Assembly: GCA_030613245.1 (NCBI GenBank)
Contig: JAUWMI010000010.1
Location: forward strand, 1-64,000
Source: Candidatus Sumerlaeota bacterium
GTDB lineage: Bacteria; Sumerlaeota; Sumerlaeia; MWCT01; JAUWMI01
Direction of reading: 5' to 3'
DNA length: 64,000 bases
The translations under genes and the position numbers were made by a program. Positions 6,867-50,946 of this stretch are shown here, piece after piece; positions within the stretch are counted from its first letter, which is position 1, and each line of letters starts with the position of its first letter. The notes beneath the pieces were generated by a model. It ran no database searches and was not told the origin of the DNA. It saw nothing but the letters and a program-made list of their open reading frames with translations.

Positions 6867-8318
6867 ATGAATGGGCTGAATCGCTTCTTCAAGTTGGACG
6901 AATTGGGGACAAACGTCCGCACAGAAGTGGTTGCAGGGATAACCACCTTCATGACCATGGCGTATATTGTGTTTGTTAACCCGGCGATACTGTCAGCGGG
7001 TGGGGTGCCATTTGAAGGAGCTGTGGTGGCGACGTGTATCGGATCGGGGCTAATTACAATTCTGATGGGCCTGTTTACCAATTATCCACTGGCCCTGGCA
7101 TGTGGAATGGGGCTGAATGCAATGGTTGCGTACACTATTGTGCTCAGCATGGGCGAGACGTGGCAGGTGGGTATGGGTGTGGTGGTTGCAGAAGGGATTC
7201 TGGTGCTGATCCTGAGCCTTACCAATCTACGGACGATCATTATGAAAGCGATTCCGCAGAGTTTAAAATACGCGATAGGAGTGGCGATCGGGTTGTTCAT
7301 AGCGTTGATCGGACTGAAAGACGCGGGGATCATTGTGTTCGACCAGGCAACCCTGTTAAAGTTAGGTAATCTGACTTCCGGGGCGACGCTGCTGGCATTG
7401 CTGGGGTTGATGATTACGGCGGTCCTGGTGGCGCTGCGGATTCCCGGGGCGTTGCTGATCGGGATTCTATCTACGGCGGTCATTGGGGCGTTTTGGCCGT
7501 TTCAGATAGTCCAGCGGCCTGAGACTGTTTTTGCACTGCCCAGTGATTTTTCGACTATGTTTCGGTTCGACCTTGCCGGGGCACTGAAAATTGCGCTGAT
7601 TCCAGTGATTTTTGCGTTTTTCATGACTGACTTTTTCGACACCATGGGAACAGCAATTGGTGTTGGTAAGCAGGCGGAGTTTCTCGATGCCCAGGGTAAT
7701 ATTCCGAAGTTGAAGAGGCTGCTAGTTGTAGATTCGCTGGGTGCAGTATCTGGCGGGATGTTGGGGTGCAGTTCAGTGACGAGTTACATTGAAAGCGCTG
7801 CGGGAGTGTCATCTGGCGGACGAAGCGGGTTAACCGCCGTGGTAACGGGGTTGCTCTTCTTTGTCGCGCTCTTTTTTACGCCGATTATCGCCATTGTCGG
7901 GGGCGGCTACATGGTGATGCAGGAGTTTGCAATCGCTGGACAGCAGGTGTTGTCGGGTGATGGTAGAGTGTTGATAGAGCAGCTGGGGTTAGAAGGGTGT
8001 AATGTGCTGAAGCAGGGCTATTTGTATCCGATCACGGCGCCGGCGCTTATTATCGTCGGATTTCTCATGTTTAAGGTGATTACGGAGATCAATTTTGCAA
8101 ATATAGAAGAAGGGCTGCCGGCATTTCTGGTTATTCTCGTCATGCCACTTACACTGAACATCTCCTACGGGATAGGATTTGGCTTTATAAGTTTTTCTCT
8201 CATTAAGGTGCTGATCGGCAAAGGGCGTGAAGTGCATCCTCTCATGTATGTCGTGTCGCTTCTTTTCGCTCTCTGCTTCATAAGTCCGTGGCTGACGAAG
8301 ATTGTCAGTGGCGCGTAG
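6867..8318 (+). CDS. AzgA/PbuG-type purine (hypoxanthine/guanine/adenine) permease
   Basis: 483 residues, highly hydrophobic with about 12-14 predicted membrane segments. It belongs to the NCS2-related AzgA branch of nucleobase:cation symporters of the inner membrane. Family signatures are the start LDELGTNVRTEVVAGITTFMTMAYI (given in part: TEVVAGITTFMTMAYI, residues about 18-33), NPAIL, and the substrate-site segment FFDTMGTAIGVG (about 258-269). The motif SVTSYIESAAGVSSGGRSG (about 305-323) is strongly conserved in this family. The start ATG 6867 has AGGAGG 9 nt upstream. It stands alone between minus-strand operons. Exact purine specificity cannot be read from the sequence. Confidence 0.93.
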   Translation: MNGLNRFFKLDELGTNVRTEVVAGITTFMTMAYIVFVNPAILSAGGVPFEGAVVATCIGSGLITILMGLFTNYPLALACGMGLNAMVAYTIVLSMGETWQVGMGVVVAEGILVLILSLTNLRTIIMKAIPQSLKYAIGVAIGLFIALIGLKDAGIIVFDQATLLKLGNLTSGATLLALLGLMITAVLVALRIPGALLIGILSTAVIGAFWPFQIVQRPETVFALPSDFSTMFRFDLAGALKIALIPVIFAFFMTDFFDTMGTAIGVGKQAEFLDAQGNIPKLKRLLVVDSLGAVSGGMLGCSSVTSYIESAAGVSSGGRSGLTAVVTGLLFFVALFFTPIIAIVGGGYMVMQEFAIAGQQVLSGDGRVLIEQLGLEGCNVLKQGYLYPITAPALIIVGFLMFKVITEINFANIEEGLPAFLVILVMPLTLNISYGIGFGFISFSLIKVLIGKGREVHPLMYVVSLLFALCFISPWLTKIVSGA

Positions 8319-8590
8319 TTTTGTGATTGGTCAACAGAACCATCTTGCACAAGAGTCACAGGCCCATTCTTTAGCTGACCGCGGATGTTCTCAGTGGCCC
8401 CACGCAAGTCATTTCCCCCAAACCCGTCATGATGCGGTGGCTTGGCGGGTTATGTCATGCTTCCAGCCTCTAGCGAGTTCCGCGTATTTTCTTTCTTCGT
8501 GTATTCTAACCCGGCAATATGTGCATTCACAGATGCAGGGTTATGACTGCGTGGTGGCGAGCGGACACAGTGGGCTGGTGGAGTCACAGC

Positions 8591-9706
8591 CTACTTGGAG
8601 AGGCCACCATTTTCGACGTGAAAGGTTTTGTCCATGGGGAAACGGCTGGTAATGGGTTGACGGTCAGTGGCGGTGATAATGGTCTGGAGGTTCTGGGTCA
8701 GCAAGGAGAGGAGCTGGATTTTGCGATGTTCGTCGAGTTCGGAAGTGATGTCATCCAGAAGGAGGATAGGTGTCTGGCCGGTAAAGTCGTGCATGAGGTG
8801 AATTTCCGCAAGGCGGATGGCAACGATGGCGGAGCGCTGCTGACCCTGGGAAGCGTAGGTGCGCGCGTCGTTTTTATTGATGAGAATCTGGATATCATCA
8901 CGGTGAGGGCCGACGGTGGTTTGTGCGCGATAGAAATCGTCCTCGCGGCTTTCGCACAGGCGTTGGGAATAGGCGAGCATTGCTTGCTCCGGAGAAAGTT
9001 TGTTGTGCGTTTCAAGAAAGTTCTGATAGGAGAGTTCGAGGTGTTCCTGTTCCTGTGATAGAAGGCCGTAGTAGCGTGCTGCATGCGCTGAGAGTTGCTG
9101 AATCACCTGGTAGCGAAGGTGGAAGATTTCCGCAGCACTTTCAACGAGCTGTTGGTCAAGACCCTCGAGCATCGTGTTGATCTGATTGGGCTCTGCTTCG
9201 GCTCTGAGGAGGAGATTACGGCGTTTGAGAATCTTGTGAAGGAGCTGAAGATGAGTGAGGTAGGCGGGGCTGATCTGGCTGATTTCCATATCCAGGAAGC
9301 GTCGGCGTAAGGCCGGGGGGCCTTTGACGATCTGAAGATCATCGGGTGTAAAGAGAATAGCATTGATCTTGCCCCAGAGGAGGCCGAGGCGGTTAATTTG
9401 CTTTTCATCTACAAGGACTGCCTTATCCGTGGGGGAAATGGCGACAGTAATGTTGTGTTCACCTTCTGAGCGATGAATCGTACCTTTGATGATGGCCACG
9501 GTATCGTCGGCGCAATTCCAGGGGAGGCATTCACGGTCAATGCGGGTGCGAAAGGAACGACCCGTGGCGAGATAGTAAATGGCCTCGAGAATGTTGGTTT
9601 TCCCCTGAGCGTTGTCACCCCAGAAGAGATTCGTCCCGGGAGCGAGCGAGAGTTTGAGGGACTGGATATTGCGAAAGTTCGTTATCTGTAGTGCGCTAAG
9701 GTACAT
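8591..9706 (-). CDS. recF: DNA replication and repair protein RecF
   Basis: 371 residues from ATG 9706 (MYLSALQITNFRN); an in-frame GTG at 9715 is also possible. RecF loads RecA at gapped DNA together with RecO and RecR. Walker A is GDNAQGKTN (about residues 31-39), the ABC signature region precedes a Walker B at LLLDDITSELD (about 320-330), and the C-terminal TATD segment is present. Length is normal. It is not next to dnaA, dnaN or gyrB, so this is not an ordinary origin-region arrangement. A palindromic repeat (9768-9801) separates it from ubiA upstream, so it may be transcribed apart from the quinone genes. Confidence 0.97.
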   Translation of the reverse strand: MYLSALQITNFRNIQSLKLSLAPGTNLFWGDNAQGKTNILEAIYYLATGRSFRTRIDRECLPWNCADDTVAIIKGTIHRSEGEHNITVAISPTDKAVLVDEKQINRLGLLWGKINAILFTPDDLQIVKGPPALRRRFLDMEISQISPAYLTHLQLLHKILKRRNLLLRAEAEPNQINTMLEGLDQQLVESAAEIFHLRYQVIQQLSAHAARYYGLLSQEQEHLELSYQNFLETHNKLSPEQAMLAYSQRLCESREDDFYRAQTTVGPHRDDIQILINKNDARTYASQGQQRSAIVAIRLAEIHLMHDFTGQTPILLLDDITSELDEHRKIQLLSLLTQNLQTIITATDRQPITSRFPMDKTFHVENGGLSK

Positions 9707-9767
9707 GAGTGACACCAGTGTTGCGTGTGCTTAAAATAAGTCCTGCTGACTGAGGACATTCTCTATA

Positions 9768-9801
9768 TTGTGTAGGGGCGTTCAATTGAACGCCCGCACA
9801 A
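9768..9801. repeat. Palindromic intergenic element (GTAGGGGC family), copy 1
   Basis: TTGTGTAGGGGCGTTCAA (9768-9785) is followed at once by TTGAACGCCCGCACAA (9786-9801), an inverted repeat with a 2-nt bulge and no loop. It shares its outer GTAGGGGC motif with the perfect 30-bp palindrome at 26032-26061. Confidence 0.7.
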
Positions 9802-9809
9802 TCACCTGG

Positions 9810-10679
9810 CTAACTGGCAAACCGGACGAGAAAATCTAGTGCGCCACAGGCGAACAGAAATACGCTGATCAGGCCGTTGACCGTGAAGAACGCGGTATTT
9901 ATGCGCGAGAGGTCGCGCGGACTCACCAGATGATGTTCGTATAAGAGCAGTCCGCCGGTGACAAGGACACCGAACAGGAAGAACCAGGAAAGTGTACTGA
10001 GAAAATAGACCATCAGGAAAGAGCAGAATGCGCCAGCATGAGCGAGCCGTGCTACGCGCAGCGCCGCAGGAATTCCAAGTCGTTGAGGGATTGAGAGGAT
10101 GCTGAGTTTAACGTCAATGTCATAATCCTGGCATGAGTAAAGAATGTCAAAGCCTGCGGTCCAGAGCAGCACGCCCAATCCCAGCACCAGCGGAGGCACG
10201 GCAAAGGCTCCACGCACTGCCACCCATGCCCCAATCGGAGCCAGGCTGAGTGCCAGGCCTAGAATGAAGTGCGAGTAGATAGTAACGCGTTTCGTGTAGG
10301 AATAGCCAAGGATGATAATGAGCGCCACTGGAGAGAGGGCGAAGGTTAACCGGTTGAGCTGCGAAGCGCAGAAGATAAAGAGCAGGGCCATTATTGCTAC
10401 AAATCCACAGGTGAACGTCAGGCTGAGCTTGCCGGTAGGAAGCGCGCGAGTGCGTGTGCGCGGATTCTGGCGGTCGTAATCAAGATCAACGATGCGATTG
10501 AAGGCCATGGCAGCAGAGCGGGCAAACACGCAGGCCAGCACAATCAGCACGATGATGCGCAGCGAAGGAATCCCATGTGCCGCAAGAAGAATACTGATCA
10601 GGGCAAAAGGCAGCGCAAAGACCGAATGCTCGAATTTAATCATTTCCAACACCAAGGCAATCTTGCGTACGAGTTTCAT
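9810..10679 (-). CDS. ubiA: UbiA-family prenyltransferase (quinone biosynthesis; MqnP/UbiA type)
   Basis: 289 residues with about 8-9 membrane segments. It transfers a polyprenyl chain to an aromatic ring precursor at the inner membrane. The first Asp-rich motif is NRIVDLDYDRQNPRT (residues 61-75, D65, D67, D69) and the second is around CQDYDIDVKLSI (about 183-194). It overlaps ubiX by 4 nt and lies in the operon ubiE-ubiX-ubiA. No chorismate lyase, UbiC or men gene is present. The same trio serves the futalosine (Mqn) menaquinone pathway, where the homologue is called MqnP, so the aromatic acceptor may be dihydroxynaphthoate rather than hydroxybenzoate. Confidence 0.93.
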   Translation of the reverse strand: MKLVRKIALVLEMIKFEHSVFALPFALISILLAAHGIPSLRIIVLIVLACVFARSAAMAFNRIVDLDYDRQNPRTRTRALPTGKLSLTFTCGFVAIMALLFIFCASQLNRLTFALSPVALIIILGYSYTKRVTIYSHFILGLALSLAPIGAWVAVRGAFAVPPLVLGLGVLLWTAGFDILYSCQDYDIDVKLSILSIPQRLGIPAALRVARLAHAGAFCSFLMVYFLSTLSWFFLFGVLVTGGLLLYEHHLVSPRDLSRINTAFFTVNGLISVFLFACGALDFLVRFAS

Positions 10680-11290
10680 GTCAGGGGGTCCTCAGCAGAC
10701 CACTGAATTTTCCCAGGATGAGGCAACCCAAGGTGGGTAAAGATTCTGGAAATAAGAAAGTCCGCCAGGTCGTCAATTGTTGTGGGATGATGATAGAAAG
10801 CCGGCATAGCAGGCAGAATACAGGCACCAGCATGGGCGAGGGTCAGCATATTCTCGAGATGGATTGCGTTGAGGGGTGTTTCGCGCGGAACGAGTATCAA
10901 AGGTCGGTGTTCCTTGAGGCAGACATCGGCGGTGCGCGTTAGAAGATTAGCAGCGTAGCCTGTTGCCACTGCGCTAAGGGTTTTCATGGAGCAAGGAATG
11001 ATGACCATGGCGTCGTAAGGGGTTGATCCGCTGGCTGGTGGTGCGAGCAGATCATCATTGCGATGATGGGTGAGCTTTGCCAGCGCATCGGGGCTGACCG
11101 AAAGAAAGTTCGCAAGACGCAATGTCTGCTGAAATCCGGTCACTTTGAGTTCTTTTTCGATGAGCAGGGCAGCGGTTTGCGTAATGATGAGGGACACAGT
11201 AACCGGCAGATTCAGGACAGTTTCCAGGAAGCGCCTGGCATAATAGACCCCGCTTGCACCGCTAATGCCGACGATGAGACGTGTTATCAT
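10676..11290 (-). CDS. ubiX: Flavin prenyltransferase UbiX
   Basis: 204 residues. UbiX joins dimethylallyl phosphate to FMN to make prenylated FMN, the cofactor of UbiD-type decarboxylases. The Rossmann-like start VGISGASGVYYARRFLE (about 7-23) binds FMN. The segments DAMVIIPCSMKTLSAVATG (about 93-111), RPLILVPRETPLN (about 131-143) and PAMPAFYHHP (about 164-173) are characteristic. It overlaps both neighbours by 4 nt (ATGA), so translation is coupled to ubiE and ubiA. The matching UbiD decarboxylase is not in the window and should be elsewhere in the genome. Confidence 0.97.
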   Translation of the reverse strand: MITRLIVGISGASGVYYARRFLETVLNLPVTVSLIITQTAALLIEKELKVTGFQQTLRLANFLSVSPDALAKLTHHRNDDLLAPPASGSTPYDAMVIIPCSMKTLSAVATGYAANLLTRTADVCLKEHRPLILVPRETPLNAIHLENMLTLAHAGACILPAMPAFYHHPTTIDDLADFLISRIFTHLGLPHPGKIQWSAEDPLT

Positions 11291-11988
11291 AGCACCTCTC
11301 CCAGATAGTAGCAGACGATTCCGTGCGTACGCGGGATTACGCGCACGTTGTGAAGACCGGAGGCCAGCAGCAGACCCTTGAGCTGCTCAGGATCGGGAAA
11401 TGTGTGAATAGAATGCTGTAAATAGCCGTAGGCGTGGGTGCGTGTTAACCAGTAGCCAATGCGAGGCAGCACGCGGGTCAAGTAGAGGCGATAGAGATTT
11501 CGGAAGACTCCACGTGATGGAAGTGAGAATTCAAGGATAAGCACTTTCCCTCCGGGTCGGGTGACACGAGCCATTTCGCGTATTCCCTGGGCTAAATCAC
11601 TGAGGTTGCGAAATCCAAAGGCAACAGTGACCAGGTCGAAAGATTGATCGGCGAAGGGGAGAGAAAGGCAATCAGCCTGAACCAGACATGGCGAGTTATT
11701 GAGCGATGCGCGCTGGATCTTGAGCCGGGCTTTTGTGAGCATGGCACGGGAGAAATCAAGGCCGACGATTACGGCATCAGGGCGAGCGGCTGCGGCAATA
11801 CAGAGGGCCAGATCAGCTGTCCCGGTACACAAGTCAAGGGCGCGGGTGACGTTGCCATTGAGCACCATTCTAGTTGCAAGGTGACGCCAGTGCGTATCAA
11901 TATTTGCGCTGAGTATATGATTCAGCAAATCGTAGGCTGGCGCTACGGTGTCGAACATTTTTTGAATCTGACGGGCTGTTTCATCCAA
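11287..11988 (-). CDS. ubiE: Demethylmenaquinone/ubiquinone C-methyltransferase
   Basis: 233 residues of the UbiE/MenG family, which performs the last C-methylation of the quinone ring using SAM. Motifs: FDTVAPAYDLLNHILS (about 12-27), SAM-binding ALDLCTGTADLA (about 49-60), and FGFRNLSD with RPGGKVLILEFS (about 126-155). No ATG lies near the N-terminus; the start is TTG 11988, supported by GGAGG 9 nt upstream. It is the first gene of the ubiE-ubiX-ubiA cluster and overlaps ubiX by 4 nt. Whether the substrate is demethylmenaquinone or a benzoquinone is undecided, but anaerobic context favours menaquinone. Confidence 0.95.
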   Translation of the reverse strand: MDETARQIQKMFDTVAPAYDLLNHILSANIDTHWRHLATRMVLNGNVTRALDLCTGTADLALCIAAAARPDAVIVGLDFSRAMLTKARLKIQRASLNNSPCLVQADCLSLPFADQSFDLVTVAFGFRNLSDLAQGIREMARVTRPGGKVLILEFSLPSRGVFRNLYRLYLTRVLPRIGYWLTRTHAYGYLQHSIHTFPDPEQLKGLLLASGLHNVRVIPRTHGIVCYYLGEVL

Positions 11989-12509
11989 TTGTGTATGCCT
12001 CCGCCGGATGAAAGTTATCCGCTACACCTAAGACGCGTGTATCATGAATCTGACGTATATCCTGGCGGCTGCATGAATTGCAAGGCAGAATTCAGAGTAT
12101 GCGGGTTTATCCGGACGGGCAGCGGTGGGAAGAGAGTTCCCATGGCGAAATGAGTGGTTAATTAAGCCCGATATAGGGAGTTTGTTGGAAAATGGCATAC
12201 GCAAAGGTGCAGAGACTCGATGTGCGTAGGTGCGTATTTTAATGGGGTTGAGGCGCATTAATGTTTGACAGGCAACGTGCAATCTTTTAAGAGTGCATGC
12301 TAGTCATTTGACAAGAGGGATAGAGGTAGAGCAAGCAATTTCAAGTCGGTAGATTGGCACGAGCAGGAAGAAGCACCTATTGCGAGGTGTTTAATGCGCC
12401 CAGGCGCATGGATGTGAGCAATGCTGGCATGTACTGGTGGCGCAGCGTGGATATTGCGTGTCAGCGGCCAGCGGTGTAATGAGTCTATCGTGCTACAAGG
12501 TGGTGTGTC
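11989..12509. other. Intergenic region between divergent units, nothing recognised
   Basis: About 520 nt upstream of both ubiE and the TM/coiled-coil gene. It must contain promoters for both directions, but I see no convincing -35/-10 pair. The short reading frames here have no family resemblance. Confidence 0.4.
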
Positions 12510-39429: not shown

Positions 39430-40446
39430 TCATCGGCGCGCCGCGACAGTGTTGCGCTGTTTAGTCTCCTCCGGCGCTTTTTCTTCTGCCATTCTTGTCC
39501 GTTTCATCAGCGAATGAGCCAGACTGAAGCGATAGAATGTTCCAATCGGATCCACGATCTGCTTGATAATCCTGTCAATCTCCTCTGGCTCTTTAGCGTC
39601 AATCACGGAGGCAATAGCGCTAAGAAACTTAGCGCCCTGATCCATGACACCCTCGGGTGGGCCGTAGCAGCCTCGACATGGCATATTGGCCCTTATGCAT
39701 CGAGCATCGCATCCACCTCTGGTGGCCGGGCCAGCGCAGATAATGCCCTGTTCCAGAAGACACTTCTTTGGTTCGGGAATTATTTCGAATGGACGGTAGA
39801 ATTTAGTAATTTTCTTTTCTTCTTTCTCCAGCTTACACTCGTCGCACACAGTTTTTTGAGTTGCACCAAGCACTGCGCCTTTGGGTGGCAGAGGTTTTCC
39901 CTGGATGATATGCTCCAGGACAGCCCAGGTTTGCTCTGGTACCGGCGAACACCCGGGAATGAAGTAATCAACGTCCACGGTCTGTGCAAGGGTCTTAACT
40001 GTATCATAAAATTCGGGGAGGGTGAGCGTGCCTTCGTCTACCTTCACAGTGGTCTTGGGCTGGACATTGTTTGGATTATCGGTTGAGGCTGTATATTTAT
40101 ACACGCAGTCGAAGACGCCTTGCTTATTGGTCATATTTGCCAGAGCAGGGATTCCGCCCAAGTGGCTGCATGCACCATAGGCCACAAGGATTTTCGATTT
40201 GCTTCGCAAAAGATGCGCCATGTGTTCGTTTTCTGAGGTGCGCACTGCACCATTAAAAAGACAGACGTCAATATGCTTATCGGGAAACGCCTCAACATCC
40301 TTGTATTTTACATCAATGGCCACGGGCCAGAAAAGGATGTCTGCTGCGGCTGCTAAATCGAGGATTTTTTCATAGAGTTCCAGGATTGCCATATCGCAGC
40401 CACCGCAGCTGGCGGCCCAATATAAGGCGAGTTTTAACTTACCCAT
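39430..40446 (-). CDS. mvhG: NiFe hydrogenase small subunit, Mvh type
   Basis: 338 residues. It carries the Fe-S clusters that lead electrons from the active site. The proximal-cluster pattern begins ALYWAASCGGCDMAILE (about 7-23; C14, C17) and continues with GACSHLGG (about 91-98) and PGCSPVPEQTW (about 166-176). Further cysteines lie in CDECKLEK, GIICAGPATRGGCDARC and CRGCYGPPEG (about 215-265), enough for two more clusters. No signal peptide, consistent with a cytoplasmic enzyme. A 50-residue charged tail ends the protein. It lies between mvhD and mvhA. Confidence 0.95.
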   Translation of the reverse strand: MGKLKLALYWAASCGGCDMAILELYEKILDLAAAADILFWPVAIDVKYKDVEAFPDKHIDVCLFNGAVRTSENEHMAHLLRSKSKILVAYGACSHLGGIPALANMTNKQGVFDCVYKYTASTDNPNNVQPKTTVKVDEGTLTLPEFYDTVKTLAQTVDVDYFIPGCSPVPEQTWAVLEHIIQGKPLPPKGAVLGATQKTVCDECKLEKEEKKITKFYRPFEIIPEPKKCLLEQGIICAGPATRGGCDARCIRANMPCRGCYGPPEGVMDQGAKFLSAIASVIDAKEPEEIDRIIKQIVDPIGTFYRFSLAHSLMKRTRMAEEKAPEETKQRNTVAARR

Positions 40447-40510
40447 AGGCTCTTTTCTCCCTGAATCAGGATATTTATCTTACGACTTTTATACATAAAC
40501 TCGCGTGAGG

Positions 40511-40963
40511 TTATGATGCCTTGGAAGCGGTTTCGGCTGTTGCCTGCTCAGCAGGTGCCTTTTGCCTATGGAACGGGCCAAGGGCGCGAACCTGGGCAGT
40601 CATGTCATTGACCACCTGGGCAAAGCGGTCGCCTTCAGACGCAGAGATCCACTCAAGGCGGACGCGGCCTTCTTCCACTCCGAAGTCGCTTAGCATTTTC
40701 TTCAGGAGATGATACCGACGGAGGGCACTGTAGTTGCCTTCCTGATAATGACAATCGCCAGGATGGCAACCCGCGATCAGGACACCGTCTGCACCGGACT
40801 CCAGGGCCTTCAGGACAAACGTTGGATCAACCCGACCACTACACATCACACGGATCACATGGATGTTCGGGGCGTACTTTATCCGGGCGGTGCCGGCCAG
40901 GTCTGCGCCTGTATAGGAGCACCAGTTGCAGAGAAATCCCACAATTTTTGGTTCAAATGTCAT
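40511..40963 (-). CDS. mvhD: Hydrogenase delta subunit MvhD (electron transfer to Hdr)
   Basis: 150 residues. MvhD joins the hydrogenase to HdrA through a [2Fe-2S] cluster. Motifs: GFLCNWCSYTGADLAGTAR (about 9-27), VMCSGRVDP (about 39-47) and GCHPGDCHYQEGNY (about 65-78), which supply five cysteines. The C-terminus (about 130-150) is an Ala/Glu/Thr-rich tail. AAGGAG precedes ATG 40963. In known complexes MvhD contacts HdrA, yet no hdrA is found here; it may be fused or encoded elsewhere. Confidence 0.95.
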   Translation of the reverse strand: MTFEPKIVGFLCNWCSYTGADLAGTARIKYAPNIHVIRVMCSGRVDPTFVLKALESGADGVLIAGCHPGDCHYQEGNYSALRRYHLLKKMLSDFGVEEGRVRLEWISASEGDRFAQVVNDMTAQVRALGPFHRQKAPAEQATAETASKAS

Positions 40964-41114
40964 CGCAGCACTCCTTCGGCCTCTGAGAGGAGATTCGCAC
41001 CGGGAAGGTGCTTTGCGTGAACAACACTATGCGGTCACGCAGCCGCACAGGTACCTCTCACCACTTTAATCAGATGTCATCAATAACCTTGATCTCTTTA
41101 TCCTTTTCTGCTCG

Positions 41115-42008
41115 CTATTTACGCTCCAGCAATGCTTGATATTTCTCCAACAGCGGTTTTGCGGGTACAATGTTAGTGCGAAGTCCGAGATCCTCATTGG
41201 GCACACCAAAGGCCAGCCCAATAAGCTGGGTGAAGAATAAAATGGGTATCTGGAAATTGAGATTGTATTGCCGGCACACCCGTTCTTGATAGGCATCGAG
41301 GTTAATCTGGCACAACGGACACGCTGTAACTATACAATCTGCCTCGTATTGATCGGCACAAAGCAAGATGTTCTTAATCAGGCGTAGTGCAACGTCTTCC
41401 GTTGAGCCGATCAAGGATCCGCCGCAGCACTTCGCCTTCATTGGGAAATAGACGGCTTCTGCCCCAAGCTGCTCGAACAAGGTATCCATGGTGGTTGGCA
41501 TTTCCGGATCGTCGAATTCGTGAAGGGGTCGGACAATCTGGCACCCGTAATAGCATGCCACCTTGAGACCGCGCAAATCGCGCTTGGCTTTGGCCTGGAT
41601 GGCCTCTGTTCCGACGTCTTGCGTAAAGACGGATAGAAGATGACGTACCTGGATGGTGCCATTGTACGTCAGACCTCCTTCGTCAAGTATCTCATCAATT
41701 TGCTCTTTTAATTTCGGGAATTCCGCCAGGTAGGTGTTTGTCTTATTTAGTGTGGTAAAACAAGCGGCACAGGGAGTAACAAGAGGTCGGCCGTATTGCT
41801 CGGCCAGAGCCAGGTTCCGTGCAGAAATAGCGAACGAGAGAAGCTCCTGGACCGACATGTAGGCCGTAGCGCCGCAACAGTTCCAATCTTCCAGCTCTAT
41901 CAGCCGAATGCCAAGCCGTTCGGCCACTGCCCGCGTTGAGCGATCATACGCTTTTGAGGTTGCCTCAAGCGAACACCCGGGATAGTAGCTATACACCAGT
42001 TCTTCCAT
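41115..42008 (-). CDS. hdrB: Heterodisulfide reductase subunit B-like (CCG domain) protein
   Basis: 297 residues with two CCG (cysteine-rich) domains that bind non-cubane [4Fe-4S] clusters. The first has SYYPGCSLEATSKAYD (about 7-22), EDWNCCGATAY (about 40-50) and TPCAACFTTL (about 78-87). The second has ACYYGCQIVRP (about 151-161), KCCGGSLIG (about 192-200) and TACPLCQINLD (about 228-238). In methanogens this subunit reduces CoM-S-S-CoB; in bacteria without that disulfide the acceptor is unknown. It starts on the last base of the hdrC stop codon (TAATG), so translation is coupled. Confidence 0.95.
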   Translation of the reverse strand: MEELVYSYYPGCSLEATSKAYDRSTRAVAERLGIRLIELEDWNCCGATAYMSVQELLSFAISARNLALAEQYGRPLVTPCAACFTTLNKTNTYLAEFPKLKEQIDEILDEGGLTYNGTIQVRHLLSVFTQDVGTEAIQAKAKRDLRGLKVACYYGCQIVRPLHEFDDPEMPTTMDTLFEQLGAEAVYFPMKAKCCGGSLIGSTEDVALRLIKNILLCADQYEADCIVTACPLCQINLDAYQERVCRQYNLNFQIPILFFTQLIGLAFGVPNEDLGLRTNIVPAKPLLEKYQALLERK

Positions 42009-42583
42009 TAGAAGCCTCCTAAGGATTTCGCCTTACGAATGATTTTCTGTAATTGTGATATGTTGCGGATTTTGGTCGGCAGCAGGGGAAGGCGGCCGTG
42101 AGTAAGTAGTTTTAATCCAATCGGGATATTTTGCAGCAGCTTGAGAGGTTTGGTCTTGAGAAAATATCGCTGGATGAGTTCCAGCTCGTGGTTGCGTCCG
42201 TACTTATTTACAATGTGAGTGAACATCTTGGAGAGCTCTTGTGCATCACTACCTTTGGGGTATTTGCCGTCCTTTATAGAGATACGTTTGAGGGCATACA
42301 TGATGTCGGTTATTTTAATATCCTGCGGACATCGAACGTAGCAAGAATAGCAGGACGTACAGAGCCAGAGCGTGTTGCAGCTTAGCACCTCGTCACGCAT
42401 ACCAGCGCGGATCATCGCAAAGACCTTACGCGGGGTATAATCCATAACGTAGCTGGTGGGGCAGGAGCCACTGCATGTGCCGCATTGAATGCAATCTTTG
42501 ATTTTTTCGCCACCTGGGATGCTGTAAATTTCCTCAAGGAAATCAAGGTGCATACTTTCTTCAAGAACGACGTCACTTTTCAT
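42008..42583 (-). CDS. hdrC: Heterodisulfide reductase subunit C-like ferredoxin protein
   Basis: 191 residues with two [4Fe-4S] motifs, CIQCGTCSGSCP (about 31-42) and CTSCYSCYVRCP (about 75-86). They pass electrons from HdrA to HdrB. The C-terminal half is helical and contains no further cysteines. AAGGAT stands before ATG 42583. It is the first gene of the operon hdrC-hdrB-mvhD-mvhG-mvhA-protease, with a divergent promoter pair about 60-90 nt upstream. Confidence 0.95.
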   Translation of the reverse strand: MKSDVVLEESMHLDFLEEIYSIPGGEKIKDCIQCGTCSGSCPTSYVMDYTPRKVFAMIRAGMRDEVLSCNTLWLCTSCYSCYVRCPQDIKITDIMYALKRISIKDGKYPKGSDAQELSKMFTHIVNKYGRNHELELIQRYFLKTKPLKLLQNIPIGLKLLTHGRLPLLPTKIRNISQLQKIIRKAKSLGGF

Positions 42584-45212: not shown

Positions 45213-46061
45213 ATGAGAGAACGTGACGTTGCGGCGCGGTTTGGGTGGCAGATTCGCCGGGCACTGGCCGAGGATATCGGTAAAGGGGATGTCACCAGCC
45301 TGAGGCTGGTGCAGACCAATCAGCATGGGCGTGCGCACATTGTTGCCAAGGCTGATGGAGTGCTTTGCGGAATGCCGGTGGTACAGTGTGTGTTCCATTG
45401 TCTTGACCCACGGCTCCGCATCGAATGCCTCGGGCGTGATGGTAAGCAGGTGCGACGGGGGGAAGTTGTGGCCAGGATTAGGGGACGTGTGCGCCCCATA
45501 CTATCGGGGGAGCGGGTGGCGCTAAACTTTCTGCAGCACCTTTCGGGGATTGCGACACAAACGGCCCGATTCGTTGCGGCCGTGCGCGGATCAAATACGA
45601 AGATTTACGATACGCGGAAGACCACGCCGCTCTGGCGTGGACTGGAGAAATATGCTGTTCGGACTGGAGGCGGCTACAATCATCGCATGGGTCTCTTCGA
45701 CATGATTCTCATTAAGGACAATCACATTGATGCAGTGGGGGGAATCGGGCCAGCGGTTGCGCGTGCGCGTGCTCGCAAGAAACGCGGTCTGCGTATTGGT
45801 GTGGAGGCGCGGACGCTTGAGGAGGTACGCGAGGCCGTCACGAGTCAGGCGGATCTGATCTTGCTCGACAATATGCCCATACACCAGATCAGGCAGGTGC
45901 TCAGGATCGGAAAGGGAAAGACCGAGATCGAAGTTAGTGGCGGGATCAACATTGCGCGAGCAAAGAAAATGGCAAGCCTGGGAGTCTCACGTCTCTCAAT
46001 TGGCGCGCTCACTCATTCGGCGCCGGCTTTGGATTTCTCGCTTGAATATATAAAGGCTTGA
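45213..46061 (+). CDS. nadC: Nicotinate-nucleotide pyrophosphorylase (quinolinate phosphoribosyltransferase)
   Basis: 282 residues. NadC converts quinolinate and PRPP to nicotinate mononucleotide in NAD synthesis. Motifs: ALAEDIGKGDVTS (about 17-29), ERVALNFLQHLSGIAT (about 100-115), YDTRKTTPLWR (about 132-142), GGGYNHRMGLFDMILIKDNH (about 152-171), and VEARTLEE followed by ILLDNM and EVSGGIN (about 230-252). GGGAG lies 5 nt before ATG 45213. The 264 nt between panB and nadC hold no recognisable gene. nadA and nadB are not present. Confidence 0.97.
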   Translation: MRERDVAARFGWQIRRALAEDIGKGDVTSLRLVQTNQHGRAHIVAKADGVLCGMPVVQCVFHCLDPRLRIECLGRDGKQVRRGEVVARIRGRVRPILSGERVALNFLQHLSGIATQTARFVAAVRGSNTKIYDTRKTTPLWRGLEKYAVRTGGGYNHRMGLFDMILIKDNHIDAVGGIGPAVARARARKKRGLRIGVEARTLEEVREAVTSQADLILLDNMPIHQIRQVLRIGKGKTEIEVSGGINIARAKKMASLGVSRLSIGALTHSAPALDFSLEYIKA

Positions 46062-46193: not shown

Positions 46194-49100
46194 ATGAGTG
46201 TATATCCCGAGAACACGCTCAAATCTGTTCTGAATCAGCTCAAAATCATGAAGATGTTAGAGCTGATTAATTATCGAACGGATACCATGCAGGAAGCGGA
46301 GGATACAATCAGGTGTTTCTGCCCGATTCACAAAGAAGTGGTCTTTCGTACGCTGATCATCAACACGAGCGATAAACACTTCCGATGTTCGTACAGCTTA
46401 TGCGCGGGTCATAAGGGTGGAGACCTGATTTTGCTCTACGCACTTGCAGCTGAGAAGGATTACGACGAGTGTGTGGATTTCCTGGTGGACCACTTTGGCT
46501 TAGATGTAGAATTGCCCACCTCGAAGGAATTCGTCGAGAAGACCGTAGAGATAGCTGAGAATTATCTGGAGCTTGGTGCTCTTGACGAAGCGGAGCACGG
46601 ATTCAAGAAAGTTATTTCTATTGATCCCAAAAACCTTACCGCGCATAAAGGGCTGCTGGAAGTATATACATTGCTCAACAATGAGCCAAAGAGACTCAAA
46701 TCTCTGCGGGATCTGGTCAATCTCTATGCTGAGCAGAAGGAGTACAAGGAGGTTATTGAATTTGGCCGGAAAGTGCTCGAGAAGGAACCGGAGGATGTAC
46801 AGATCCAAGAGCAGTTGATTGATGGCTATCTGGGATTGGGTGACCATGCGACGGCTGTTAACGAATGTATGATGCTGGCAGACACGTACGAGAGTAAGGG
46901 GAAGTTCGCTGAAGCGCTGTCGCTATATCGCAAGATTGACCAGTCAAGTCTGGATTTAGTGGACGTTTATCCGCATATCATTCAAGTTCTTGTGGCGGCG
47001 AGCAGAACTGACGAGGCAACCAAAGAGACCATACAGCGTGCAGAGCGTTTGGTGAGAGAGGGTTCCTATGAGCAGGCTCTGGAATATTACAAATACGTGC
47101 TTGAGATAGATGATACGCGCAACGATATCCGCCGTCAGTATGTGAAAGTGTCGCTGGCCCTGGGGTTAAATGAGAAGCGCATTGTGACGTGCCTCGCAAT
47201 GGTTAATGAGATGTTAAATCAAGAGACGTTTAGTGATGCAGTGCCGACCTTGAATGACATGGTCACCGAGGCGCCGAATAATCTTTCGATCCTCAACAAG
47301 CTGAGCGAGGTGTATGAACGTCAGGGTAAAGATGAGGAGCGCCGGCAGATACAGCTCAAAATGGCTGATATTTGTCAGGATCAAAGTCGCACGCGGGAGG
47401 CTGTGGATTTGCTCGAGCAGCTGTTGACCCGAAACTCTGAGGATACTGATGTCCTGGGGCGCATGGCAGCTATCCAGAGGACGCAAGGGGAGAAGAAATC
47501 CTCGAGCAAAACCTACCGTAAGATGGCAGAAATTTTCAAGACGCAGAACCGGTATGAGGAGGCGGTACAGATTTATCAATCGCTAGTCGAGATTGAGCCA
47601 AAGGATCTGGGGAGCCGGCGCGAACAGATTCAATTATACCTGGCGGCAGGAAACGCAGAGCATGCAGTTGCAAAAGCTCAGGAGCTCATTGACCATCTCT
47701 GTAGCAAGAAGCAGTACGAGTCGGCCATTGAGGAGATTGGGCGATTGATCGAGGCCTTGCCGGACGTTGGGGAGTTGCATGTGAAGCAGGCAGAACTCTT
47801 CGAGAAAATCAGGCGTGCAGACGAGGCACGAGAGGGCTATTTTCGTGCACATGATCTTTTCAAACAACAGGGCCAGTTGGAGAAGGCGGCAGTGCAGCTC
47901 GACCGGATTCTGGCAAGCGATGAGACGAACTTCCGCGCTCTTAAGGCGCAGGCTGAGCTACAGGCGCAGATGGGCGATGGTGTAAAAGCTCTGGGTACTC
48001 TGAGCGAGCTCGCCACGTCGCTCATTGACAAGAATGATTTAGAAGAGGCGCGCGCTGTGGTGCAGAAGATTCTGGAAATCAAGCCCGACGATTTGGCAAG
48101 CCTCGATCGTCTGGTTGAGGTGAACCAACGGCTGAAGGACAACCAGGGGCTGATTTCGGCTTATACACAGCAGATCGATGTTTTTCTACAGCGCGAAGCA
48201 TTCAGTAAGGTCGTCGAAATCTGTCAGAAGATTCTCGCCATTGACTCCTCAGATACAATGGCACGGCTGAGTCTGATTCGAGTGTACGAGCTTACGAATA
48301 AGCAAGAGATGGCACTTGAGCAATACTGCCAGCTGGCCGAGCTTTACCGAAAGTGCCAGGACCGTGAGAAGGAGCGAGAGGTTTGCGAAAAAATTCTTAC
48401 TCTTAAGAGTGACGATGCTGAGGTGCGGCGGCATTACTGCGACCTTTTGCTTGAGACCGGTCACATGCAGGAAGCCTGTACGCAGCTGGGGGCAATCGTA
48501 GAGCAATACTGCGCGCAGGCAGATTTCCAGCAGGCTACTGATCTTTTGCAGCAGTACTTGGAGCGCACCCCTGAGTGGGCTGAAGCACTGGTGGAGTTAA
48601 TTGAGGTGTGCCGGCGGGCCGAGAAGCCAGCCGAACAGCGCGACGCAACGCTGCGGCTGATCAAAGTGCACGAGCAGCGGGGCGAGCTGGCCAACGTTGC
48701 GAATCTCTATCGTGAGCTGCTGGTTCTTGAACCCCAGAATTTCACGTTTCATAATAATCTGATCCATACCTTGCTGGAAGCTGGCAAGACTGACGAAGCG
48801 AAAGGGGAGTACGTAACTCTTGCCCAGCTCTATTGCGAGGCAGAACGCTACGATGACGCTGAAGCTATTTATAGTGAACTACTTGAGCAAGATGCCGACA
48901 ACGAGACTGTGCATCGCGGTCTCATTACATTGTATCGCAAGCAGGGCAATATGCAGCGGGCGATAGAGCAGATTTACCGATTGAGCAGTATCAAACAGGA
49001 GCAAGGGACAATTGACGACGCGATCAGCGTGTTGCGGGAGGTTGTTGAGATTGATCCTCAGAATGTTGATGTACGGCGCAGAATCATCGATCTCGACAAA

Positions 49101-50279
49101 GAGGCGAAGAAGGTAGACGATGCTCTTAAGGAATTTGCAGTGCTCTACGACATGCACATGCAGAACAAGGAGCTGGAGGCTGCCGTTGCAGTGCAGAAGG
49201 AGGCGGTCAGTCTCAAGCCTGACGAGCCCACATTGCGGCGGGTGCTGACTGATACGTACCTGAAACAGGACAATGTTGATGAAGCGGTGGAAGAGCTCTT
49301 TGCGCTGGTTGACCTCTATAATGAAAAGGAAGAGTATGAAGAGGGCATGAAGGTTCTGGGCGAGGTTCTCGAGCTTGACCCGCAGAATCTGCGTGCGAAA
49401 CGTAGGCGAGCAGAAGGGTATGCCCGGTTGGGAAAGGACAAAAAGGCACTGGAGGAATTCCTTCGGCTTGCCATCGTGTTTGACAACATGCCGGTGACAG
49501 ACGGCAAGCAACGAGACAAGATAGCTGAGGAGCTCCAGAAATTCCGTGAACTTCCTGTTGTTAAAGAATATTCCTTCGATCAGTTCGTGGTGGGAGATCG
49601 AAACAATTTTGCATTTGCAACAGCGATGGCCGTGGCAAAATCGCCGGCCAGAAGCTATAATCCGTTATTCTTCCATAGCGATGTGGGCCTGGGCAAAACG
49701 CATTTGCTGCATGCCATTGCTAACTACGTAACGATGCACAGTCAGGATCTCAAAGTCCTTTATACAAACTCTGAAGAATTTACCAGTGAATTGATTGATG
49801 CGATTCAGAACAACACGGTCATTGCATTTCGCAACCGTTATAAGAACACCGATGTGCTGCTGCTCGACGACGTGCAGTTTTTGGCTGGAAAGGAACGCGC
49901 CCAGGAAGAGTTCTTCCATATCTTTAACACTCTCTTTCAGGGCAAAAAGCAGATTGTGCTGACCAGCGATCGCCCGCCAAAAGATATGGCCCACCTGGAG
50001 AAACGGCTGCGCTCGCGCTTTGGGGGTGGTGTCATCGTTGACATTCAGCCTCCAGATTTTGAGACCCGCACTGCAATTTTGCACAAGGATGCTCAGGCCT
50101 ATCCTGGGATTGACATTGCCGATGATGTGTTCAATTTGATTGCTGAACGCATCCGGAGTAATGTTCGGGATCTCAAAGCGGCGCTCAATCAGGTGATTGC
50201 CGTCCACCAGATTACTCAAGAGCAAATTACACTTAATATGGCGAAACGCGTTCTGGAGAGCATCCTGGAAAAAGTATAG
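46194..50279 (+). CDS. Giant CHC2-zinc-finger / TPR / DnaA-type AAA+ fusion protein
   Basis: 1361 residues, no signal peptide or membrane span. Residues about 38-100 resemble the DnaG CHC2 zinc-binding domain: CPIH (C43, H46), then HFRCSYSLCAGHKGGDLILL with C65 and C70 (spacing 4, not the usual 2). A TPR array of roughly 20 or more units fills about 105-1105. The C-terminal part (about 1122-1361) is a DnaA domain III: FDQFVVGDRNNFA, Walker A VGLGKTHLLHAI (K1168, T1169), Walker B DVLLLDDVQFL (D1225, D1226), sensor 1 IVLTSDRPPKDM, and RLRSRFGGGVIVDI. The DnaA DNA-binding domain IV is missing. A role in a replication- or RNA-linked assembly is inferred; no such system is known to me. Confidence 0.88.
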   Translation: MSVYPENTLKSVLNQLKIMKMLELINYRTDTMQEAEDTIRCFCPIHKEVVFRTLIINTSDKHFRCSYSLCAGHKGGDLILLYALAAEKDYDECVDFLVDHFGLDVELPTSKEFVEKTVEIAENYLELGALDEAEHGFKKVISIDPKNLTAHKGLLEVYTLLNNEPKRLKSLRDLVNLYAEQKEYKEVIEFGRKVLEKEPEDVQIQEQLIDGYLGLGDHATAVNECMMLADTYESKGKFAEALSLYRKIDQSSLDLVDVYPHIIQVLVAASRTDEATKETIQRAERLVREGSYEQALEYYKYVLEIDDTRNDIRRQYVKVSLALGLNEKRIVTCLAMVNEMLNQETFSDAVPTLNDMVTEAPNNLSILNKLSEVYERQGKDEERRQIQLKMADICQDQSRTREAVDLLEQLLTRNSEDTDVLGRMAAIQRTQGEKKSSSKTYRKMAEIFKTQNRYEEAVQIYQSLVEIEPKDLGSRREQIQLYLAAGNAEHAVAKAQELIDHLCSKKQYESAIEEIGRLIEALPDVGELHVKQAELFEKIRRADEAREGYFRAHDLFKQQGQLEKAAVQLDRILASDETNFRALKAQAELQAQMGDGVKALGTLSELATSLIDKNDLEEARAVVQKILEIKPDDLASLDRLVEVNQRLKDNQGLISAYTQQIDVFLQREAFSKVVEICQKILAIDSSDTMARLSLIRVYELTNKQEMALEQYCQLAELYRKCQDREKEREVCEKILTLKSDDAEVRRHYCDLLLETGHMQEACTQLGAIVEQYCAQADFQQATDLLQQYLERTPEWAEALVELIEVCRRAEKPAEQRDATLRLIKVHEQRGELANVANLYRELLVLEPQNFTFHNNLIHTLLEAGKTDEAKGEYVTLAQLYCEAERYDDAEAIYSELLEQDADNETVHRGLITLYRKQGNMQRAIEQIYRLSSIKQEQGTIDDAISVLREVVEIDPQNVDVRRRIIDLDKEAKKVDDALKEFAVLYDMHMQNKELEAAVAVQKEAVSLKPDEPTLRRVLTDTYLKQDNVDEAVEELFALVDLYNEKEEYEEGMKVLGEVLELDPQNLRAKRRRAEGYARLGKDKKALEEFLRLAIVFDNMPVTDGKQRDKIAEELQKFRELPVVKEYSFDQFVVGDRNNFAFATAMAVAKSPARSYNPLFFHSDVGLGKTHLLHAIANYVTMHSQDLKVLYTNSEEFTSELIDAIQNNTVIAFRNRYKNTDVLLLDDVQFLAGKERAQEEFFHIFNTLFQGKKQIVLTSDRPPKDMAHLEKRLRSRFGGGVIVDIQPPDFETRTAILHKDAQAYPGIDIADDVFNLIAERIRSNVRDLKAALNQVIAVHQITQEQITLNMAKRVLESILEKV

Positions 50280-50397: not shown

Positions 50398-50946
50398 ATG
50401 GATGAGTACTATCGCGGGGTACAGCAGGCGCTGCAGCAGCCAGAGATGGGTTTCGTTGAGCTGCTCTTATGGGGTTTTGGCATTTTTATTGCAGTTCTTC
50501 TCGTTATTTTCGTTGGGAAAGTCATCAAGACAATTATCACGCAACGGGTTCAACAGATACGGTATTATGGGGTGGATTTTGAAGGGCTCAAGCAAATGCT
50601 TGACACTGGCTTGCTGAGCGAAGAGGAATATCAGAAGGTTCGAAAGAAAGTTGCAGAACGATTGGCCGAAGAGATGGCACAGGAGAGGAGGCCCGCAGCG
50701 CCAGGTCTTTCCGTGCCTGCGCAAAAACCCGCTACGACACCTAAGCCTGGCTGGCCCCGGGAAACTCCTATCCCGCGTGGCGTTGGACCCGGCAATGAGA
50801 AGATCACTGTACCATCAATGCCTGCGGGTCGCGGTCCTTCCAAGGGCAAGAAGGCGCTGGACCTCGATGGGATGTTCAAAGCCGGTCTTATCACAGCGGA
50901 GGAGTATGAGAAATTGGCGCAGTTTTTTCGCGATAAGGAGAAGTAG
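50398..50946 (+). CDS. Membrane protein with two SHOCT-like motifs
   Basis: 182 residues. One membrane span (about 18-44, FVELLLWGFGIFIAVLLVIF) is followed by two copies of a SHOCT-type helical motif: DFEGLKQMLDTGLLSEEEYQ (about 60-79) and DLDGMFKAGLITAEEYEKL (about 155-173). A Pro-rich linker (about 97-145) separates them. SHOCT motifs commonly lie at the ends of small bacterial membrane proteins and may bind other proteins. It starts 118 nt after the giant CHC2/TPR/DnaA gene and may belong to the same unit, hence could anchor it to the membrane; that is speculation. Confidence 0.65.
   Translation: MDEYYRGVQQALQQPEMGFVELLLWGFGIFIAVLLVIFVGKVIKTIITQRVQQIRYYGVDFEGLKQMLDTGLLSEEEYQKVRKKVAERLAEEMAQERRPAAPGLSVPAQKPATTPKPGWPRETPIPRGVGPGNEKITVPSMPAGRGPSKGKKALDLDGMFKAGLITAEEYEKLAQFFRDKEK

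Follow-up and report, generated by a model that had tools for sequence, protein, structure and literature searches.

We analysed a stretch of 64,000 nucleotides from a Candidatus Sumerlaeota bacterium (contig JAUWMI010000010.1, positions 1 to 64,000 of the forward strand; hereafter the window) and describe one gene within it, which encodes a protein of 1361 amino acids (aa). The protein begins with a zinc ribbon of the CHC2 type known from the primase DnaG, continues as a long array of tetratricopeptide repeats (TPR), and ends in an AAA+ ATPase domain corresponding to domain III of the replication initiator DnaA; we refer to it as CHC2-TPR-DnaA. A model that read the sequence without database searches had proposed this layout (the original prediction), and our analysis confirmed that the three-part composition is real. 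The gene and its features are:

46194..50279, +, CHC2-TPR-DnaA(III) gene, 1361 aa; ATG start, no internal stop, orthologs in genomes of the class
46215..46511, +, CHC2 (DnaG-type) zinc ribbon, residues 8-106; PF01807, fold match and alignment
46320-46403, +, zinc ligands C43, H46, C65 and C70, spaced C43-x2-H46-x18-C65-x4-C70
46524..49493, +, TPR solenoid, approximately residues 111-1100; Pfam TPR families and ortholog alignment
49512..50270, +, DnaA domain III (AAA+ core and lid), residues 1107-1359; Pfam, NCBIfam and fold
49686..49700, +, Walker A GLGKT, residues 1165-1169 (K1168); kept in 35/35 family members
49779..49847, +, initiator-specific motif helices, residues 1196-1218; by alignment, with I/V at the E. 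coli V211 position in 32/35
49866..49871, +, Walker B D1225-D1226; kept in 35/35
50016..50018, +, arginine finger R1275 (box VII); kept in 35/35
50166..50168, +, sensor 2 R1325; kept in 35/35

Domain architecture of the protein

The C-terminal end matched the Pfam family Bac_DnaA (PF00308; E 4e-65, residues 1124-1283) and the NCBIfam DnaA model TIGR00362 (329.3 bits, below its equivalog cut-off of 343.9 bits), with residues 1107-1359 covering model positions 89-340 of 437. The Hda profile TIGR03420 gave 97 bits against a cut-off of 194.8. An AlphaFold2 (AF2) model of this region had a predicted local distance difference test score (pLDDT) of 88.6, and its best Foldseek match in the PDB was domain III of Bacillus subtilis DnaA (8bv3; 54% identity, TM-scores 0.87/0.95, E 3.5e-26), with the best Hda structure, 3bos, well behind at E 1e-12. 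An identity as Hda was therefore ruled out by both profile and fold ranking. The chain stops past the lid subdomain, leaving a tail of 0-24 residues after the AAA+ domain across the family, so that DnaA domain IV is not present; its family, PF08299, was not among the 25 of 45 Pfam families listed for the protein. Domain I of DnaA is also missing. The expectation of a DnaA ATPase domain freed of its DNA-binding domain was borne out.

The residues of the ATPase site are invariant: Walker A K1168, Walker B D1225/D1226, D1259, R1271, the finger R1275 and sensor-2 R1325 are each present in 35 of 35 family members, and the Walker positions named in the original prediction proved correct. At the positions that we take to be equivalent to E. 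coli K243 and R245 (assigned by motif, as was V211), which contact single-stranded DNA (ssDNA), the lysine is kept in 33/35 members and the arginine in 28/35. Among 16 DnaA-III domains of another phylum that are joined to REC or MshEN domains, the finger is present in 6 and the ssDNA lysine in 2; because these proteins have mostly lost both, the fold can evidently do without them. The ratio of non-synonymous to synonymous substitutions (dN/dS) was 0.07 when the AAA+ domains of two close relatives were compared, and 0.11 over the whole protein in a second pair. The gene evolves under purifying selection.

At the N terminus (first 117 residues), the match to PF01807 was just below threshold (E 8e-5, 22.8 bits, cut-off 24.9 bits), but the same family was matched by 26 of 28 orthologous N termini, with a best E of 1e-7. 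A profile search of PDB sequences ranked DnaG zinc domains first. The AF2 model of this region (pLDDT 89) retrieved only DnaG zinc domains in Foldseek, 1d0q at E 2e-4 and 2au3 at E 1.4e-3, both with probability 1.00, and the next match stood at E 1.4. The four zinc ligands are retained in nearly all families. Structure comparison thus matched both ends as proposed, the N terminus being CHC2 and the C terminus far nearer to DnaA than to Hda. TPR repeats and DnaA-III fill residues 111-1361 by Pfam, and the TOPRIM/RNA polymerase domain of DnaG primase is not present. A search of phages with the N terminus gave no match, and a scan with it across the contig collection returned only TPR-level chance relatives.

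The TPR array, recognised by Pfam TPR families, comprises about 30 helical repeats, in agreement with the roughly 1000 residues of TPR first proposed. When 16 orthologs of ~1360-1400 aa, picked for their similar length, were aligned, ~990 TPR residues aligned nearly without gaps at 21-37% identity. Without selection for length, the spacing from CHC2 to AAA+ was 1001-1033 residues in 18 of the 26 orthologs whose two end domains share a frame, and 540, 1054, 1074, 1289, 1393, 1397, 1777 and 1778 residues in the remaining eight; within family f13, the long forms are set apart by length steps of ~385 residues. A near-constant solenoid length despite divergence suggests a geometric constraint.

Conservation and genomic context

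The genome from which the window derives (4.29 Mb, 97 contigs, 96% complete) encodes a separate DnaA frame of the size of dnaA (460 aa), the normal dnaA for which the original prediction had proposed to look, as well as a separate DnaG-sized CHC2 frame (651 aa). A PF00308 search of this genome returned no further DnaA-type AAA+ domain besides canonical dnaA and the window protein.

Across the class, 35 of 39 genomes (including this one) hold the gene or a part of it cut by a contig end, distinct from canonical dnaA. These second DnaA-domain frames are mostly 900-2160 aa, the shorter ones stopping at contig ends or being otherwise cut. The CHC2 profile pointed to these loci as well, or else to a fragment located on a different contig, and both domains lie within one frame at 26 loci plus the window. 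One ortholog, in G028, is split across two overlapping frames (L017:5572-7182 and 6980-12232), the product of a frameshift or an assembly error. The gene was not found in G010, G011 and G031 (66-81% complete) or in G034 (92% complete), the last of which seems truly to be without it. G039, the sole genome from outside the class but within the phylum, encodes CHC2-TPR proteins, and the DnaA type was not found there; nor was the combination seen in ~345 genomes of other phyla. Among the genomes searched, the design appears restricted to the class.

In a tree of AAA+ domains, the 35 members formed one clade (support 100/97) outside the canonical DnaA group, and the dnaA genes of the class itself grouped at 100/99 within canonical DnaA. 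The tree was midpoint-rooted, leaving the order of deeper branches unsure. Even so, the gene is an old one and no recent copy of the resident dnaA. An assembly chimera was rejected because independent assemblies, including the single 3,289,105-bp contig of G035, have the same layout. A phage or plasmid origin was also considered and rejected: plasmid matches to the AAA+ domain were below 60% identity, and the annotated ones among the matches listed were dnaA. We found no paper on CHC2-TPR-DnaA, MshEN-DnaA or REC-DnaA in the open-access literature; within it, the CHC2-TPR-DnaA design seems undescribed so far, as the original prediction had held.

Two genes flank the locus:

45213..46061, +, nadC, upstream neighbour; adjacent in 7 loci, named from reading of the sequence
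50398..50946, +, partner gene, 182 aa, 119 bases past the gene; one hydrophobic N-terminal segment and two SHOCT-like motifs (PF20612/PF09851)

The original prediction had described the gene as standing alone, which did not hold. In 18 of 35 loci, the window among them, the next gene downstream encodes a protein with a transmembrane (TM) segment and SHOCT motifs, usually a few bases past the stop codon; the remaining loci are without a SHOCT partner at that place or lie at contig ends. These partners, of 138-232 aa, have a single hydrophobic N-terminal segment and SHOCT-like motifs in mid-chain, in most cases with more at the end. CHC2-TPR-DnaA thus has a conserved partner in the SHOCT gene, in an operon-like arrangement. 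Families f11 and f12 include 11 loci in which a ~690-aa protein without a Pfam match comes next. The adjacency of nadC is probably without a functional link. A scan for promoters and terminators of the CHC2-TPR-DnaA gene gave a signal near chance level. Neither the gene nor its partner matched a family in the PADLOC models, and an anti-phage defence system was rejected on that ground. Elsewhere in the window (39430-42583, minus strand), translations resemble MvhG/MvhD-type hydrogenase and heterodisulfide reductase subunits; PMC8092238 likewise reports mvh/hdr genes for Sumerlaeota, together with type IV pili.

Relatives of the two ends

The diverged CHC2 domain also heads several paralogs per genome. 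In one set (L060, L068, L076, L077, L063 and L064; five of 2600-3080 aa and one of 1251 aa), CHC2-TPR proteins are encoded beside a secreted SPOR-domain protein, as at L060:6742-15981 (C48) of the window's own genome; this pairing is present in the class and in a second phylum. At L066:8607-12311 and L067:9525-14686 (G221, G076), the neighbours of a CHC2-TPR gene are an AAA_22 ATPase and a pair of pilus-type ATPases, in the same order in both genomes, with MshEN and T2SSE domains in the one pilus-type ATPase scanned. These paralogs (L060, L063, L064, L066 and others) share with the window protein the same diverged CHC2 followed by TPR, but have no DnaA domain and have SPOR proteins or pilus ATPases as neighbours. 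Other CHC2 paralogs are TPR proteins of 430-500 aa, a short stand-alone form and a GGDEF-like fusion. At L065:8883-9743, which lies next to an ankyrin-repeat gene, a single chain carries CHC2 and, after it, a weak match to GGDEF (E 1e-5). In two genomes of other phyla, CHC2 and a DnaB-like helicase domain share one chain (L071:7892-10180, L072:7921-10185), resembling primase-helicases of the T7 gp4 type.

DnaA-III domains were likewise found in other company. Three genomes of one phylum (G325, G187, G386) hold 9-13 DnaA-type domains each, and DnaA-III is joined to REC or MshEN in these and elsewhere outside the phylum (L084-L094, L117, L118). Such proteins resemble CHC2-TPR-DnaA in that DnaA-III is freed of domain IV and attached to another module; they differ in having an N-terminal sensor domain and no CHC2-TPR, and in having mostly lost the finger and ssDNA residues. 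Two DnaA-III-type domains per chain occur in other phyla (L113:1893-3998, L116:1442-3220, L114:2459-7570). Together, the CHC2-TPR paralogs and the DnaA-III fusions indicate that each end of the window protein is part of a module family with a wider reach.

The window's own genome (G000) also has 18 strong matches to T2SSE-family ATPases, about half of them PilB/GspE-like and half PilT-sized, and nine MshEN domains.

Possible functions and comparison with known systems

The architecture is firm, and function is approached indirectly. We infer that the protein may bind ATP, oligomerise, contact ssDNA or DnaA, be tethered to the membrane and have a role in replication. We tentatively favour a membrane-linked AAA+ assembly factor with the filament and ssDNA faces of DnaA, which would act on ssDNA or on DnaA itself. 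CHC2-TPR-DnaA would then be a class-wide, vertically inherited factor built on a DnaA-type domain III, a proposal we hold with the same caution as the whole of which it is part. In such a factor, ATP binding, stacking of protomers through the arginine finger and ssDNA contact would have been retained from DnaA, whereas domain IV, which recognises the origin, and domain I, which recruits the helicase, would have been given up in exchange for a primase-type zinc ribbon and a TPR solenoid. The solenoid and the TM/SHOCT partner might hold the protein close to the membrane and engage a client or regulator; upon release, ATP-bound AAA+ domains could stack on ssDNA, either with one another or against the end of a DnaA filament, with the zinc ribbon reading or docking onto the same nucleoprotein. 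The role would most likely be control of replication initiation or of another ssDNA-nucleoprotein step.

We favour action on a nucleoprotein because the finger and ssDNA residues are kept. It is further supported by the DnaA-III fold, the primase-type CHC2 fold, low dN/dS, the single clade and the TM/SHOCT partner, and by retention of the gene, alongside a normal dnaA, in 35 of the 39 genomes of the class. Several f12 members that have lost zinc ligands are also altered at the ssDNA-contact positions of AAA+, and this joint loss, within a single clade, may hint at a connection between the two sites. Several observations weigh against it. The AAA+ domain is consistently unlike canonical DnaA at 14 positions, among them GG to SD directly ahead of the P-loop and two changes in the sensor-2 helix (E to K1328, R to Q1333). 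Family f12 has lost the histidine and the second knuckle of the zinc ribbon, with the CHC2 domain still there. No replication gene recurs as a neighbour among the family loci. The neighbours of CHC2-TPR paralogs without AAA+ are SPOR-domain proteins of the envelope or ATPases of the pilus type and so speak against a DNA role; the basis of the proposal is sequence and predicted structure.

Close to this proposal stands an envelope signalling hub without a DNA role, a real possibility, in which the DnaA-type AAA+ domain would serve as an ATP-driven oligomerisation switch, following the logic of STAND ATPases, and the TPR array as sensor or scaffold; the many type IV pilus ATPases are one example of a possible target. 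The TM/SHOCT partner would suit a hub too, as would the SPOR and MshEN-T2SSE neighbours of the paralogs, the joining of DnaA-III to MshEN or REC in other phyla, the T2SSE complement of the genome and the dispensable zinc ligands of f12. However, the family has kept the ssDNA-contact residues that REC/MshEN fusions mostly lost, and no pilus gene recurs as a neighbour of the DnaA-type gene among the family loci. An Hda-like inactivator, whose arginine finger would boost ATP hydrolysis by the resident DnaA, is improbable: R1271 and R1275 are fully conserved and PF00308 found no other DnaA-type AAA+ in the genome, but profile and fold are clearly DnaA-like, the protein has a full ATP site of its own, and TPR and CHC2 have no counterpart in Hda.

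Less probable still is a replicative helicase or primase loader standing in for DciA or DnaC/DnaI. DciA was not found in any of the 39 class genomes, although it is short and divergent and may escape such a search, and CHC2 and DnaA-III both come from replication proteins. However, the class genomes examined encode DnaC/DnaI-like AAA+ proteins of 231-274 aa (L125, L126, L127, L128, L130, L132), most with an N-terminal Cys-rich stretch. We lowered this explanation because the PF00308 side matches of 230-275 aa in relatives turned out to be DnaC/DnaI-like. That the gene is a chimera or decaying is hardly credible: its strange composition is all that speaks for it, whereas independent assemblies share the layout and motifs are invariant at dN/dS 0.07-0.11.

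As a whole, the interpretation in the original prediction is partly supported. It suggested recruitment of replication-like factors, action on a nucleoprotein or action on DnaA, of which the last two would fit the retained filament and ssDNA-contact residues. Its likening of the AAA+ part to DiaA-type regulators was unhelpful, since DiaA does not belong to the AAA+ proteins. Not noticed in it were the membrane partner, the conservation across the class and the family of CHC2-TPR paralogs. The observation is stronger than first stated: the design is class-wide, purifying selection acts on it, its motor residues are intact and its membrane partner recurs.

The DnaA AAA+ domain is usually regarded as a module confined to replication, Hda and DnaC being its offshoots. 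Here, the DnaA motor ends a giant TPR protein that nearly a whole class keeps beside normal DnaA. In its boldest and more doubtful form, our favoured reading holds that this is a second, lineage-wide DnaA-type factor, linked to the membrane, that stacks on ssDNA or DnaA filaments while its zinc ribbon reads DNA and its TPR ruler sets the geometry. If true, replication control in bacteria would have a layer that is new, and the factor would be one branch of a broader pattern, so far undescribed, in which the DnaA motor is re-used to build other proteins. Either replication initiation has gained a new control layer, or the DnaA motor has been turned into a general assembly switch.

Compared with DnaA domain III (PF00308, TIGR00362; 8bv3, 3r8f), the window protein has the same AAA+ fold, all ATPase motifs, the arginine finger, sensor 2, the initiator-specific helices and most ssDNA-contact residues; it differs in being without domains I and IV, in carrying DnaA-III at the C terminus of 1361 aa and in forming a separate clade. 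Hda is likewise a DnaA-type AAA+ protein without domain IV, but its profile and fold match far lower, and it is ~230 aa long without TPR or CHC2. With the zinc-binding domain of DnaG (PF01807; 1d0q), the N terminus shares the zinc-ribbon fold and the C-x2-H...C...C ligands, whereas its second knuckle is C-x4-C, the TOPRIM polymerase domain does not follow, and identity to 1d0q is 17%. STAND ATPases with TPR sensors, of the MalT type, also combine an ATPase with a long TPR array and possibly switch-like oligomerisation; the likeness is one of logic, as the core of the window protein is Bac_DnaA by profile and fold, not of the NB-ARC/NACHT type.

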